Below are positions 33,262 to 39,323 of a stretch of 40,285 nucleotides of DNA, piece after piece. The DNA comes from Fibrobacterota bacterium (lineage in GTDB: Bacteria > Fibrobacterota > OXYB2-FULL-49-7 > JAEUSG01): NCBI GenBank assembly GCA_016788315.1, contig JAEUSG010000069.1:1-40285 (forward strand), in the 5' to 3' direction. Made by a program: the position numbers and the translations under genes. Positions within the stretch are counted from its first letter, which is position 1. The number at the start of each line of letters is the position of its first letter. A model generated the notes under the pieces. That model saw only the letters and a program-made list of their open reading frames with translations. It made no database searches and was not told where the DNA came from.

Positions 33262-33432
33262 ATGGATTCAATGACAATTTTTAATTTCTGCAGTGGCATA
33301 GCTTCGATCATTTCTTTAATAATAGCAATTTCTGCGAAAAATGAGGTCAAGAGAATAAATAGAAATCAAGAAATAACAATGAGACAGTCTGGCATAGGTA
33401 ATAAGCAATCTGGAAGAGACATGCATGGGTGA
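33262..33432 (+). CDS. Small membrane protein of the ABC-3C-like operon
   Basis: A 56-aa ORF starting at ATG 33262 with AAGGAG at 33251-33256. One membrane helix covers about residues 5-23 (IFNFCSGIASIISLIIAI), followed by a basic segment and a C-terminal QSGIGNKQSGRDM. The same type of motif, QSGTGNYQAGRDI, opens the next protein. The two genes overlap by 8 nt in different frames. Such Gly/Asn/Gln repeats link effector domains to the C-terminal domain in ABC-three-component proteins, as I recall. It may be a membrane-targeting effector subunit, or the N-terminal half of one protein split by a frameshift. Confidence 0.6.
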   Translation: MDSMTIFNFCSGIASIISLIIAISAKNEVKRINRNQEITMRQSGIGNKQSGRDMHG

Positions 33433-33913
33433 TATAAATCTCTCGCAATCAGGTACTGGCAATTATCAAGCAGGTAGAGATATTGTTATTCCCGTTCCTG
33501 AAGATGATATATCTGAGCCCGAATTTAAGATTATCATAAATAAATTTATGGTAGGTAAAACATCTGTGCCCGGTGAAGATTTAACAATTATTGAATTAAG
33601 TGAAAAAAACATACTTAACGAATTATCAGACCAAGCGTTTTATCATATTAAGAAATCCTCTGTGGTAAGCTACGATAAGTTAGACGCTTTATTAAAAGAA
33701 CCTACCAATGAAGATTTACGTGAATTTTATGAAAACCTAGTTTTTTCTTTACAGACACAGTATGTACACTCAAACATGTGTGGCAATATTGAAAGGTTTT
33801 TTAGAAAAACATATCAAATGTTCATTAAGAATGACGTATCTCTCAAAGAAAGAAATTGGGGGTTACAATTAGTTTACTTTATGTATCTTAGATGTGATCT
33901 AGGATTAAAATGA
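33425..33913 (+). CDS. ABC-3C-type CTD protein
   Basis: A 162-aa soluble protein. It begins with the QSGTGNYQAGRDI motif (about 8-20). The remainder is a helical domain ending in YFMYLRCDLGLK, which resembles the C-terminal domain (CTD) that defines ABC-three-component systems; this is recalled from the family, not searched. Its ATG overlaps the preceding membrane-protein ORF by 8 nt, and its stop overlaps the next start by 4 nt (ATGA). In these systems the CTD protein is thought to couple a variable effector to the ATPase. Here the effector would be the small membrane protein upstream. Confidence 0.65.
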   Translation: MGDINLSQSGTGNYQAGRDIVIPVPEDDISEPEFKIIINKFMVGKTSVPGEDLTIIELSEKNILNELSDQAFYHIKKSSVVSYDKLDALLKEPTNEDLREFYENLVFSLQTQYVHSNMCGNIERFFRKTYQMFIKNDVSLKERNWGLQLVYFMYLRCDLGLK

Positions 33914-34143
33914 TACTTCCAACAAAAAACACTAATTTGGACGAGTCACCATTAATCGCTGGAGCAACTATTATTGAATTGTTATCAAAAGGTAACGTGA
34001 CTGTTAGTAAATTATTAATAAAAATGAAGAAAGATTTTCCAGAACATTACTACATAGTAACTATGCGTGCAATAAACATGCTGTATATCTATGGTAAGAT
34101 TGAATATGATCAGACAACAGACTCTCTGGGATTATTAAAATGA
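33910..34143 (+). CDS. ABC-3C middle component (small wHTH-like protein)
   Basis: A 77-aa protein with ATGA overlaps at both ends. The start MILPTKNTNLDESPLIAGATIIELL and the end MLYIYGKIEYDQTTDSLGLL fit the small middle-component family (MC6-like) that lies between the CTD gene and the DUF2326-type ATPase in ABC-3C systems. The family has a winged-helix-like fold and is predicted to bridge the two partners. The overlapping frames imply tight translational coupling and near-equal production. Confidence 0.72.
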   Translation: MILPTKNTNLDESPLIAGATIIELLSKGNVTVSKLLIKMKKDFPEHYYIVTMRAINMLYIYGKIEYDQTTDSLGLLK

Positions 34144-35762
34144 AAATATTAGAACTTTCATCTACTGTTTCAACATTTAGAAATATCAGATTTAAACCTT
34201 TTCTGAATCTTGTTTTGGGTAATAAGGCAGAGGGTAACGAATCTATCAGTGGTCACAATGTTGGAAAAACATCTGTTCTTAGACTTATAGAGTATTGTTT
34301 GTTTGGTAAAAAACACGAAGATTATTTTGACGGGTGGCTTGCTAAATTTAAGAACGAAAAAATCAATCTTACTATTGATTATCAAGACGATGTAAAAGCT
34401 CTATCAGTTCCAATATCAAAACGCTTGTCTTTCACTAACACAATTAATGAAGTCTTACGAGATAACCGCAATGTAATAGGGTATTCAATTAGATACAAAT
34501 CCGATTATAACGATGAATTTTCTAGAATCAATTCGTTAAGGGGAAAGGATATTAATTGGAAGCCATTTGTTTTTGGTTTGCTAGGTTACAATGAAAAGAT
34601 CATGCGAGACAAAATGCAGTCGGACATCGATTATTCGAATACTGATAATGTTTTGAAAGCCATAGATTCAGCAGACCAAAAAGACCCAGATAAGTCAGAA
34701 ATTGTCAATCGATTAGTTGTAGAAGCACAAGAAATTAGAATCGCGATGTCTAAGTTTGATTTTTTTCAATATGAAAAACAAGTTTTCTCATCAAGACTTA
34801 ATATTTTAGATGAAGAATATTCAGCAGCAAAAACAAGAATTAGAAAGCTGGAAGTGGAACTTCAAACTATTCAAAAATCTTTGGGGTTCCAACTTAAGTC
34901 AAGCTTTAATATTCACGAATTAAAAAAGATTTACGCAGAGTGTGGTATATTATTTGCAGATGGTGTTGTAAAAAGATTTGATGAAGTTGTTGACTTTAAC
35001 AATAAATTAACACTATCAAGAAAAAAAATGTTGGAAGAAATGGCTTACAGTTGTTCCAAAGAGCTAAAAGGACTATATCCTGAAGCAAAAAAAACATCAG
35101 AACTTCGTGCTAAATATTTAGAAGTACTGAGCAGAAAAGACTATAAAGAAGAATATGAAAAACTACAATCAAGATTAATAGAAATAGAAAAGGAAATTAG
35201 TGTTCTTACAGTACCGATATTTAAAAAAAGTAAAGAAGAATTTATAAAAAGAAAAAACGAACTTGAAAACATTGTTTCCAATAACACGGTGGCATTGAGA
35301 GAAGAGCTTAATCGGGAAAACATTGACTTCGAACAATTAAATGCTTATTACACAATGTTAATTCAGTCTGTTCTTGGAATAAGAGCAAAAATTGATTTAC
35401 AAGAAAATAGTAATTCGAATATTAAGTTCTGGATAAAGATCAAAGACGAAGACATGGATCTTTTTACGCTTCGCGGAGAAGCATTTAGAAAATTATCATG
35501 TGGCCTATTCGATTTAGCATTGGCGGCTGCATTTCCTGATAGAAATATGATAATAGCTCATGATGGTATAATTGATGGCATAGAACAGCCACTGAAGAGA
35601 AGATACCTGTTGTGTGTTTATAGGTTTACGAAAATGCATAATATCCAATACACTCTTTCCGCAATAAATGAGGGTATTGTTCCGGAGATAATAAGTCGTT
35701 GCTCAATTATACAATTAAGTGATTTTCCAGAAACAAAGACATTATTTGGTTTACAATATTAA
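34140..35762 (+). CDS. DUF2326-like SMC/ABC-type ATPase of the ABC-3C system
   Basis: A 540-aa protein. Walker A is SGHNVGKTS (37-45), followed by LRLIEYCLFG, typical of RecN/SMC/DUF2326 ATPases. A long coiled-coil-rich region covers about 200-400 (EEYSAAKTRIRKLEVELQTI; RLIEIEKEISVL). The C-terminal half has KLSCGLFDLALAAAF (signature-like) and MIIAHDGIIDG, where Walker B/D-loop residues are expected, then a final beta hairpin. Such proteins are proposed to sense invader nucleic acid or complexes and trigger the effector. It is the last gene of the four-gene overlapping operon and, like its partners, is strikingly A/T-rich compared with the secreted-protein region, suggesting horizontal transfer. 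Confidence 0.8.
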   Translation: MKILELSSTVSTFRNIRFKPFLNLVLGNKAEGNESISGHNVGKTSVLRLIEYCLFGKKHEDYFDGWLAKFKNEKINLTIDYQDDVKALSVPISKRLSFTNTINEVLRDNRNVIGYSIRYKSDYNDEFSRINSLRGKDINWKPFVFGLLGYNEKIMRDKMQSDIDYSNTDNVLKAIDSADQKDPDKSEIVNRLVVEAQEIRIAMSKFDFFQYEKQVFSSRLNILDEEYSAAKTRIRKLEVELQTIQKSLGFQLKSSFNIHELKKIYAECGILFADGVVKRFDEVVDFNNKLTLSRKKMLEEMAYSCSKELKGLYPEAKKTSELRAKYLEVLSRKDYKEEYEKLQSRLIEIEKEISVLTVPIFKKSKEEFIKRKNELENIVSNNTVALREELNRENIDFEQLNAYYTMLIQSVLGIRAKIDLQENSNSNIKFWIKIKDEDMDLFTLRGEAFRKLSCGLFDLALAAAFPDRNMIIAHDGIIDGIEQPLKRRYLLCVYRFTKMHNIQYTLSAINEGIVPEIISRCSIIQLSDFPETKTLFGLQY

Positions 35763-36963: not shown

Positions 36964-37094
36964 CGTTAACCATGTGAAACAGACATTTTGAATTATTGTC
37001 ATAGTTTTCAACAGTGTTGTTGCATGTAATAAAGCATTGTATGATTGCGTAAATGAGATGAATCATGTTAGTTTATAGTCAGGAGATAAAAGAA

Positions 37095-37994
37095 ATGAGC
37101 AAAAAAGAAATTAAAACAGTTAATGGCCCTGATTTTATGAAATATGTTATCCCAATTATCGAGGTCCTTAAAGAATTGGGTGGTTCAGGTAACCCTTCAG
37201 AAGTTACTGATCTAATTATTGACAAGTATAATATCTCAGAAGCTGAGCTTGAACGAAAAAATAAGAATGGTGGTTCTACCGTAAAAAATAGAATTGCCTG
37301 GGCGAGATTCTATATGGTCAAGGGTGGTATACTTGATTCGTCTAAGCGCGGTGTTTGGTCTTTTAAGGGTAACTTGTATGAGAATCTATCAGAGAAAACA
37401 ATCCCTAATTTTTTCAAGACGGTACATGAACAGTTTGAAATAGAGAAAGCGACTACGGAGAATCATAAGAAAAATGACCTTTTAGAAAATGAAATTGCTG
37501 AAAAAGTAGAAGATGAAAACTATAAAGAGAAATTATTAACAATCTTAAAAGAGCTGCCACCAGAAGGATTTGAAAAGCTTTGTCAACGACTTTTACGTGA
37601 ATCTGGTTTCACTCAGGTAAAAGTAACTGGGAAAACAGGTGATGGTGGAATTGATGGCTATGGTGTTTTAGAATTAAATCCTCTAATGAGTTTTAAGGTG
37701 TTGTTTCAGTCTAAACGATATAAAGATGTCGTTTCAACCGATAAAGTCAGAGATTTTCGTGGAGCAATGGCGGGTAGAGCGGACAAAGGTATTATAATAA
37801 CTACAGGTCGTTTTACTCAAGATGCAAAATATGAAGCTGTTAGAGATGGTGTGCCTCCAATTGAGTTGGTAGATGGTGATAAGCTCATAAGTATGTTTGA
37901 GAAACTCGAATTCGGATTAATACCACGGACCGTATACGATATAGATCTTGAGTTCTTTAAAGAATTTACTAATGAAACTCAGGAGAAGTCGTAG
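37095..37994 (+). CDS. Mrr-type restriction endonuclease
   Basis: A 299-aa protein from ATG 37095, chosen because AGGAG (37081-37085) precedes it; an in-frame ATG at 37065 lacks a ribosome site. The N-terminal domain (about 14-95, PIIEVLKELGGSGNPSEVTDLI ... WARFYMVKGGIL in split form) is the Mrr_N winged helix. The C-terminal domain has LPPEGFEKLCQRLL (Glu160), TGDGGIDGYG (Asp187) and LFQSKRYK (Gln205-x-Lys207), the catalytic core of Mrr_cat, followed by ADKGIIITTGRFTQDA. Mrr enzymes cut methylated DNA. It ends before a repeat element (38056-38204). There is no modification gene nearby, as expected for a methyl-dependent enzyme. Confidence 0.9.
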   Translation: MSKKEIKTVNGPDFMKYVIPIIEVLKELGGSGNPSEVTDLIIDKYNISEAELERKNKNGGSTVKNRIAWARFYMVKGGILDSSKRGVWSFKGNLYENLSEKTIPNFFKTVHEQFEIEKATTENHKKNDLLENEIAEKVEDENYKEKLLTILKELPPEGFEKLCQRLLRESGFTQVKVTGKTGDGGIDGYGVLELNPLMSFKVLFQSKRYKDVVSTDKVRDFRGAMAGRADKGIIITTGRFTQDAKYEAVRDGVPPIELVDGDKLISMFEKLEFGLIPRTVYDIDLEFFKEFTNETQEKS

Positions 37995-38055: not shown

Positions 38056-38204
38056 CACCCGCGCGGTCGTCGAGCTCGTGTGTAAGTAGAACGGTGAGTC
38101 GAGACGCCGCGCTTCTGGTGGGTGACCTGCTTTTGCCTTTTCGCTTTTCTGCCTCCCGGTTGTCGAGTGATTTGCATGAAATGCAAATTGTATCGAGACA
38201 ACCG
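38056..38204. repeat. Two-hairpin repeat, copy A (149 bp)
   Basis: It starts CACCCGCGCGGTCGTC. Hairpin 1 pairs GCGCGG(T)CGTC with GACGCCGCGC. A pyrimidine-rich linker follows. Hairpin 2 (38157-38204) has perfect outer arms CGGTTGTC/GACAACCG and inner arms ATTTGCAT/ATGCAAAT with loop GAA. Copy C has the same length with about ten substitutions, and the 48-bp hairpin 2 is identical in all three copies. The remainder of the 37995-38329 gap shows nothing else I can support. Confidence 0.85.
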
Positions 38205-38329
38205 TTTCTTTTCCCACTATCTCAATTATAGTATTGCTTGTCTTAAAAGGAATATGCGATATTGCATTGCATAAAAGTAATACTAAGAAGATTCGTTGGC
38301 AACGTGATTAAATTACAAGAAAGCATGGC

Positions 38330-39070
38330 ATGTTAACTATTCAAGAAATAGCAGCTGTTGAAAATTATTTCCCGCAAATGTTTACGGGTTGTATAAAAAC
38401 AGAGGACTACGTATTGTATTACAACGAAAAGAATAAAGAATCCTGGGATTCAAATCATGCGATAATATTCAAGTATGACGAGAGGTATGAAGAACATGTC
38501 GATATCATCGCTTCTATTTACACAAACCTCGGCATAGTCCCAAGATTTTATAACGCCTATGTAAAAGATTATATCACTGCAGTGCGAGAGATGTTAATAC
38601 GTAAAGGATATACATTCGAGTTGAACGAGAATAGATTCTTTTATCGTTCAGGGCGTAGAGTGATTAAAGATCTACCAGAGCTTAAAATAAAACAGATAAC
38701 ACAGTCTTGTGATGCAATAGATGAAATTCTTGTAGATGCGCCCTGGATGAAGGTAGTCATAGAAAACTCTCTGCCATCAGATTCATTCCGCCTTTTCATT
38801 GGCTACGACTATTTAAAACCTGTAACAATGGCCTCATTAAGAACCATTAATGACCTTACGCGCTTGGATGATGTAAAAACACCATTGGCATATCGTGGCA
38901 GAAAGTATTGCCAGAGTTTGCTTAACGTTATTCTAAATGATGAAAGTATCAGTCACTATACAAAGCAGTATTTATACGCCTGTGAAAGAGACGCCGTCCA
39001 CATATATGAAAAACTGGGATATGTAGAGCATCCTGAAAAGGTTCATTTTTGGATGGCGTGGAAAGAGTAG
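38330..39070 (+). CDS. GNAT-family N-acetyltransferase-like protein
   Basis: A 246-aa protein. The C-terminal half has the acetyl-CoA fold pattern: FIGYDYLKPVTMASLRTIND (beta strands), AYRGRKYCQSLLNVILND (the R/Q-x-x-G-R-like loop and helix, somewhat degenerate) and YLYACERDAVHIYEKLGYVE, the typical GNAT end where a residue after 'A' leads into 'IYEKLGY'. The N-terminal 120 residues may be a second, degenerate GNAT half. The substrate is unknown. The start lacks a strong ribosome site. It is bracketed by copies of the same two-hairpin repeat (A upstream, B and C downstream), which suggests that it moved or is mobilised as a unit. Confidence 0.7.
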   Translation: MLTIQEIAAVENYFPQMFTGCIKTEDYVLYYNEKNKESWDSNHAIIFKYDERYEEHVDIIASIYTNLGIVPRFYNAYVKDYITAVREMLIRKGYTFELNENRFFYRSGRRVIKDLPELKIKQITQSCDAIDEILVDAPWMKVVIENSLPSDSFRLFIGYDYLKPVTMASLRTINDLTRLDDVKTPLAYRGRKYCQSLLNVILNDESISHYTKQYLYACERDAVHIYEKLGYVEHPEKVHFWMAWKE

Positions 39071-39100
39071 AGCCGTTTGCCTGATTTGTTTCCTGTCTCC

Positions 39101-39148
39101 CGGTTGTCGAGTGATTTGCATGAAATGCAAATTGTATCGAGACAACCG
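39101..39148. repeat. Two-hairpin repeat, partial copy B (hairpin 2 only)
   Basis: It has the 48-bp hairpin 2 identical to copies A and C, preceded by CTGTCTCC and a shortened form of the linker (CCTGATTTG at 39080-39088). Hairpin 1 is absent. It begins 30 bp after the GNAT stop. Confidence 0.85.
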
Positions 39149-39174
39149 TTTCTCCGGGTCTTCTTCATTCTAAG

Positions 39175-39323
39175 CACCCGCGCGGTCGTCGAGCTCTTGT
39201 GTATGTAGAGAGGTGAGTCGAGACGCCGCGCTACTCAAGGGTGACCTGATTTTGCCTTTTCGCTTTTCTGTCTCCCGGTTGTCGAGTGATTTGCATGAAA
39301 TGCAAATTGTATCGAGACAACCG
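39175..39323. repeat. Two-hairpin repeat, copy C (149 bp)
   Basis: It has the same length and order as copy A. The stems of both hairpins are unchanged, while differences from A fall in the loop of hairpin 1 and in the linker. It lies 26 bp after partial copy B. The rest of the 39071-39495 gap holds two TTGACA boxes (39432-39437, 39449-39454) whose pairing with a -10 box is unclear. Confidence 0.85.

Follow-up and report, generated by a model that had tools for sequence, protein, structure and literature searches.

Orphan copies of CGTC-tagged, REP-like hairpins in a Fibrobacterota contig and their probable pairing with GIY-YIG nucleases elsewhere

Repeats in the window

The DNA analysed here, called the window, is a stretch of 40,285 nucleotides from a Fibrobacterota bacterium, and towards its end three copies of a palindromic element lie in the same orientation around one gene. 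The question that this locus raises is whether the hairpins move the gene between them, act as RNA, or belong to a family of dispersed repeats with an enzyme of its own. The first-pass annotation had described two 149-bp copies of a two-hairpin element and a third copy with hairpin 2 alone, and sequence comparison within the window confirmed this: copies A (38056-38204) and C (39175-39323) agree at 93% of positions along 149 bp, the match of copy B (39076-39148) is limited to the hairpin-2 part of the unit, and 52 bp of hairpin 2, read from the sequence, are identical in all three copies (38153-38204, 39097-39148 and 39272-39323). The left arm GTCGAG and the right arm TCGAGAC are, as had been noted, common to hairpin 1 and hairpin 2. 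The features of the locus are as follows.

38056..38112, + strand: hairpin 1 of copy A, outer stem GCGCGG-T-CGTC / GACG-CCGCGC, core GAG...TCGA
38113..38149, + strand: linker from hairpin 1 to hairpin 2 of copy A, common to copy C, diverged (read from sequence)
38150..38204, + strand: hairpin 2 of copy A, degenerate tag TGCC, core CGAGTG-ATTTGCATGAAATGCAAAT-TGTATCGAG
38330..39070, + strand: gene between the copies, 246 aa, weakly GNAT-like
39094..39148, + strand: copy B, hairpin 2 alone, TGTC tag
39175..39231, + strand: hairpin 1 of copy C
39232..39268, + strand: linker of copy C (read from sequence)
39269..39323, + strand: hairpin 2 of copy C, TGTC tag

The gene at 38330..39070 matched Acetyltransf_7 with E = 0.0026, which is under the curated cut-off; it is probably just a neighbour of the repeats and not their cargo. 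A Mrr-type restriction endonuclease gene (Mrr_cat E 1e-31, Mrr_N E 1e-17) lies immediately upstream of copy A, at 37065-37994. At 33425-35762 lies a possible ABC-three-component (ABC-3C) pair, of which the first protein is a CTD12 protein (PF20279, E 8e-11) and the second, of 540 aa, has no Pfam match above cut-off; the pair adjoins a weakly HNH-like gene and the Mrr gene, so that this part of the window looks like a defence-like island.

Fold and covariation of the hairpins

When the 149-bp unit was folded and compared with shuffles, z was -3.67 and -3.60 for the two strands as single-stranded DNA, and as RNA it was -2.17, which is less clear. Among ten distinct forms of hairpin 2, Watson-Crick pairing was kept in 47 of 50 cases in the outer stem, compared to a permuted mean of 29.6 and a maximum of 40, and pairing was kept in 49 of 50 in the inner stem, compared to a mean of 28.1 and a maximum of 41, although the sequences of the forms differ. 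Since both stems covary this strongly, the fold is under selection. One copy of hairpin 1 carries a compensatory change from CGTC/GACG to CATC/GATG, and this change together with the covariation of hairpin 2 means that each of the two hairpins represents a family whose fold is conserved. The earlier proposal that the internal design shared by the two stems is a selected fold is thus borne out, and the tandem G-A design marks a large repeat superfamily. The pattern GAG..CGA is specific, with 84 hairpins in the GIY-YIG loci described below and at most one for scrambled triplets. The hairpins are very probably single-strand recognition structures.

The tandem G-A mismatch itself, which the annotation had read in both hairpins, stands less firmly. 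Energy models prefer a CGA/TCG pairing with a 2-nt bulge over the tandem G.A mismatch. The closing pair beside GAG/TCGA, which the pattern search left free, was complementary throughout: all 30 short hairpins had T-A there, and of the long hairpins 11 had C-G and 3 had T-A. Because the 3' base would be free in the bulged register, such a concerted switch fits the tandem-mismatch register; as all the 5' bases sampled were pyrimidines, this covariation is support for that register rather than proof of it.

Distribution in the source genome and in other genomes

In the source genome (5.55 Mb in 850 contigs, a bin that is 95.5% complete) the exact core of hairpin 2, CGAGTG-variable-TGTATCGAG, was found in 13 copies and its reversed control in none. 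Hairpin 1 alone was found on C602, on C643 and twice on C130, 148 bp apart, and the full unit of hairpin 1, linker and hairpin 2 was found in the window only. The stretch between two hairpin-1 copies 148 bp apart (L013, 230-423) holds another, different palindromic sequence. The copies are dispersed and mostly intergenic, and most are single or in inverted pairs, with opposed pairs on C115, C329 and C849. TGTC stands before TCCCGG in about half of the copies, B and C included, and the outer stem is longer in this genome than in Flavobacteriia. The only IS200-like Y1_Tnp gene of the source genome (L071, 1200-2200) has its own unrelated palindromes, GCAGGCCAAAGGCCTGC.

A looser core matched in 14 of 61 genomes of the source phylum, where some matches resemble coding sequence, and clear structured copies were present in four of them (G028, G047, G045 and G024), with eight in G028. 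In that genome the apex of two hairpin-2-like elements (L067 at about 1501-1552 and L069 at about 1501-1553) holds a second palindrome, for example ATTTCGACTTCGCTCAATGAC, which resembles the short GAG/TCGA repeat flanking the GIY-YIG gene L365 of the same genome, so that these are nested repeats. Many Flavobacteriia were among the matches listed in a GTDB scan, and there the elements often formed opposed pairs with a few dozen bases between them. In 39 elements among those matches all 4 bp of the outer stem were paired, and in 34 of these the stem was immediately preceded on its 5' side by CGTC or TGTC. The tag is therefore conserved along with the fold. The annotation had allowed that the element might occur only here, with no covariation elsewhere, and the copies in relatives, with stems that covary, dispose of that. 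Two other searches were set aside: the looser pattern GTCGAG..TCGAGAC discriminated too poorly, with matches in relatives mostly coding-like and controls comparable, and in a viral scan the few matches that had paired arms look like chance.

GIY-YIG genes flanked by hairpins

When open reading frames around the elements were clustered without a prior idea, a GIY-YIG protein of about 95 aa was encoded 40, 68 and 249 nt from elements, and its family was the recurrent close neighbour other than housekeeping genes. At the best-scoring GIY-YIG locus of each of 30 motif-bearing genomes, chosen blind to the repeats, there were 0.536 tandem-GA hairpins per kb (0.54 and 0.34 for stand-alone loci), compared to 0.093 per kb at UvrC loci from 20 of the 30 genomes, UvrC carrying the same GIY-YIG domain, 0.058 at Y1_Tnp loci and 0.03-0.08 in shuffles; the absolute rates are inflated because the flavobacterial genomes were chosen for the hairpin-2 core, a bias that the UvrC and Y1_Tnp controls share. 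A hairpin lay within 600 nt at 16 of 30 GIY-YIG loci and at 3 of 20 UvrC loci, and hairpins lay on both sides at 10 of 30 GIY-YIG loci compared to none of 20 UvrC and one of 21 Y1_Tnp loci. GIY-YIG proteins with a W-S-x-K-K signature were flanked in 18 of 25 cases and the others in 5 of 25 (p = 0.0005).

The type of hairpin follows the type of enzyme. In a tree of 77 GIY-YIG proteins, the long class GAGT[AG]..GTATCGA, which is the type of hairpin 2 in the window, was present beside every one of the 19 members of one clade (node support 0.78) that had been sampled blind to the repeats; proteins of this clade end like LPNLAKKKF. The short classes GAGCGCAGTCGA and GAGCTTGTCGA flank other clades, and still others have no hairpins. 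Over the proteins labelled by hairpin class this class needs 5 Fitch changes, compared to a mean of 13.6 and a minimum of 9 in shuffles (0 of 5000), and the result was the same without three loci, two of which were duplicates, that had been selected because elements were present. There is one GIY-YIG gene outside the clade with hairpin-2-type neighbours (L439). The tag was present in 89 of 93 long hairpins near GIY-YIG genes, as CGTC in 49 and TGTC in 40. In other genomes, then, hairpin types sort with GIY-YIG clades and lie beside the genes of those clades.

A stand-alone GIY-YIG gene ringed by its own repeat was found in Flavobacteriia and, in the source phylum, at L500 (G196), where the gene lies inside an inverted pair of CGTC-tagged hairpins with 51-nt arms that are 90% complementary; the protein is the closest match in that phylum to the hairpin-2-type clade. 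In G028 the hairpins around the flanked GIY-YIG gene are of another, short type. Two flavobacteria have similar GIY-YIG genes in tandem, with spacings of about 349-484 bp, at L432 (G092) and G063:C1:1044211-1045458. At L365, L394, L400 and L397 the GIY-YIG frames run into the downstream repeat and apparently have repeat-encoded C-termini, for example VIEPVEMTD or SSTGSE.

The source genome has two GIY-YIG genes, one UPF0213/YhbQ-like and one UvrC; neither has hairpins beside it, and a close match to the hairpin-2-type clade was not found in this genome. The window copies look like orphans because no flanked stand-alone GIY-YIG gene was detected there. Since the bin is short of complete and several copies lie where contigs end (C366:14, C130:230), it could lack a gene that has repeats on its flanks. 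The window copies are probably relics, or are served by a gene absent from the assembly.

A proposed explanation and its alternatives

A probable explanation is that the repeats of the window are orphans, non-autonomous copies that belong to two related CGTC/TGTC-tagged REP-like palindromes, which a cognate GIY-YIG nuclease would nick and spread. Each unit would consist, in order, of the 5' tag, a variable outer stem, an invariant GAG/TCGA internal motif and a variable inner stem, the motif being a tandem G.A, a G-C pair and then a T-containing internal loop. Such a unit would form a hairpin when the DNA is single-stranded, for example when it serves as lagging-strand template or is being taken up by a cell, and a stand-alone cognate GIY-YIG nuclease would recognise the fold and the tag and nick there. 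Once nicked, the DNA would be repaired or joined anew, which would spread copies and give rise to inverted pairs and to mosaics, among them the 149-bp composite of hairpin 1, linker and hairpin 2. That the enzyme recognises single-stranded DNA, nicks it and spreads the copies is what we infer from the genomic pattern, in which a small GIY-YIG DNA-cutting enzyme is probably the one that recognises the hairpin.

The structure is real and selected, and other readings of it were weighed. Tandem G.A motifs are stable in RNA, and a structured RNA element (a 3'-UTR stabiliser, terminator or regulator) would also agree with the avoidance of divergent intergenic regions, 8 copies being in these compared to 52 in co-directional and 24 in convergent ones. 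The elements show little preference, however, for the strand of the gene that ends at them (56 same, 44 opposite), the fold stands out less from shuffles as RNA than as DNA, no Rfam match for the element exceeded the gathering score, which counts against RNA, and selection at the RNA level leaves the link to a clade of DNA nucleases unexplained; we consider this reading unlikely. That the hairpins serve for recombination, as attC-like sites or composite ends, and so move the bracketed gene as in a cassette array was suggested by the three same-orientation copies in the window and by G047:C161, where the spacing about a gene fragment is similar, at 748 bp. We consider this very unlikely, as the copies, being mostly single or inverted, argue against a cassette array, ORF clustering found no integrase family recurrent beside them and there was no gene common to arrays. 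The ends GGTTGTC...GACAACC do not fit the attC core RYYYAAC...GTTRRRY, and an integron attC site was rejected on that account. Orientation and neighbours thus give no sign of a moving cassette, and a mobile cassette with cargo is not supported, the gene that the annotation had called cargo being weakly GNAT-like.

The annotation had also pointed to an HUH tyrosine transposase (RAYT/TnpA-REP), which mobilises REP elements in E. coli and Pseudomonas. The 5' tetranucleotide tag, the inverted pairs and the intergenic scatter are like those of GTAG REPs (PMC3733652, PMC6006769) and the source genome does have one Y1_Tnp gene, but the motif does not flank it, the tag is CGTC/TGTC instead of GTAG, and five genomes (G028, G062, G063, G070 and G071) have the motif without a Y1_Tnp match. 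At 21 Y1 loci in 11 motif-bearing flavobacteria the hairpins were at background density, with the loose design on both sides at one and the hairpin-2 type at none. A RAYT/HUH partner was rejected, Y1_Tnp loci being at background in the source genome, 8 related and 15 flavobacterial genomes; this reading is largely refuted, is very improbable for the window, and gives way to the GIY-YIG nuclease as the best-supported partner elsewhere. More serious is the view that the repeats are decayed and inactive in the source genome, an ordinary segmental duplication of a relic. Copies A and C have diverged, the tags are partly decayed and the cognate enzyme was not found in the bin, and we regard this as quite possible, somewhat short of an even chance. 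It leaves the covariation and the nuclease link elsewhere unexplained, and it is compatible with spread by a GIY-YIG nuclease as the end state of that process in the source genome.

Comparison with known systems

The nearest likeness on the side of the enzyme is Ssn, a family of GIY-YIG single-strand-specific nucleases that, with their NTS repeats, are said to have been described by Chenal et al. in Nat Commun in 2025. Ssn, in Neisseria and in homologues, reportedly cuts single-stranded DNA at its own dispersed repeats. As with Ssn, a small stand-alone GIY-YIG enzyme is paired here with its own dispersed repeat family; unlike in Ssn, the source genome has the repeats and no detected enzyme, and the comparison is made from sequence. 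Because the Ssn family reportedly embodies such a pairing, the principle of pairing a nuclease with a repeat is probably already known, and what is added, unless the Ssn paper covers it, is the long-hairpin type, the tandem-GA core, the tag and the clade-level pairing in Bacteroidota and Fibrobacterota. Searches of the literature on the hairpin core, on GIY-YIG combined with REP and on Ssn gave no relevant paper.

GTAG REPs and REPINs with their RAYT (PMC6006769) are similar in having a tag, a hairpin with an internal mismatch and inverted doublets, and also in that cognate repeats flank the enzyme gene and the repeat type tracks the enzyme clade. They differ in the fold of the enzyme, HUH-Y1 compared to GIY-YIG, and in the tag, and neither a GTAG/GTGG tag with a flanked Y1_Tnp gene nor hairpin-2-type flanks at Y1 genes were found here.

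The CGTC-tagged REPs of Di Nocera, De Gregorio and Rocco (2013, PMC3733652), which include dRS3 of Neisseria and RPE-4/6 of Rickettsia, are a superfamily, described in that paper as lacking a dedicated transposase, in which the CGTC tag varies to TGTC, and their four families have stems of 8-9 bp and loops of 4-5 nt. The present element is placed in this superfamily because CGTC or TGTC precedes its stem. Like those REPs, it has the tag (CGTC, or TGTC/CCTC) unpaired at one foot of a palindromic stem, is intergenic and multi-copy, often in opposed pairs, and occurs in several phyla including Bacteroidetes with no associated tyrosine transposase. Unlike them, the window type has an internal GAG/TCGA plus T/TAT motif and a second, variable stem, so that hairpin 2, with outer stem, internal loop and inner stem, is not of the published size, and the outer stem of hairpin 1 is extended and rich in GC. 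Hairpin 2 is a variant of the superfamily outside the four published families, and the link to GIY-YIG is absent from that paper. It is conceivable, though we hold it only tentatively, that tandem-GA CGTC-tagged REPs are copied and spread by the nucleases of one GIY-YIG clade, their missing dedicated enzymes, which would be an HUH-independent mobility in Bacteroidota and Fibrobacterota. The window is merely an orphan example of this kind of repeat. Since the pairing of hairpin and nuclease is clade-specific, and names both a motif (CGTC tag with GAG/TCGA hairpin) and an enzyme clade, it makes the gap left in 2013, the missing enzyme of the CGTC-tagged REPs, directly testable.
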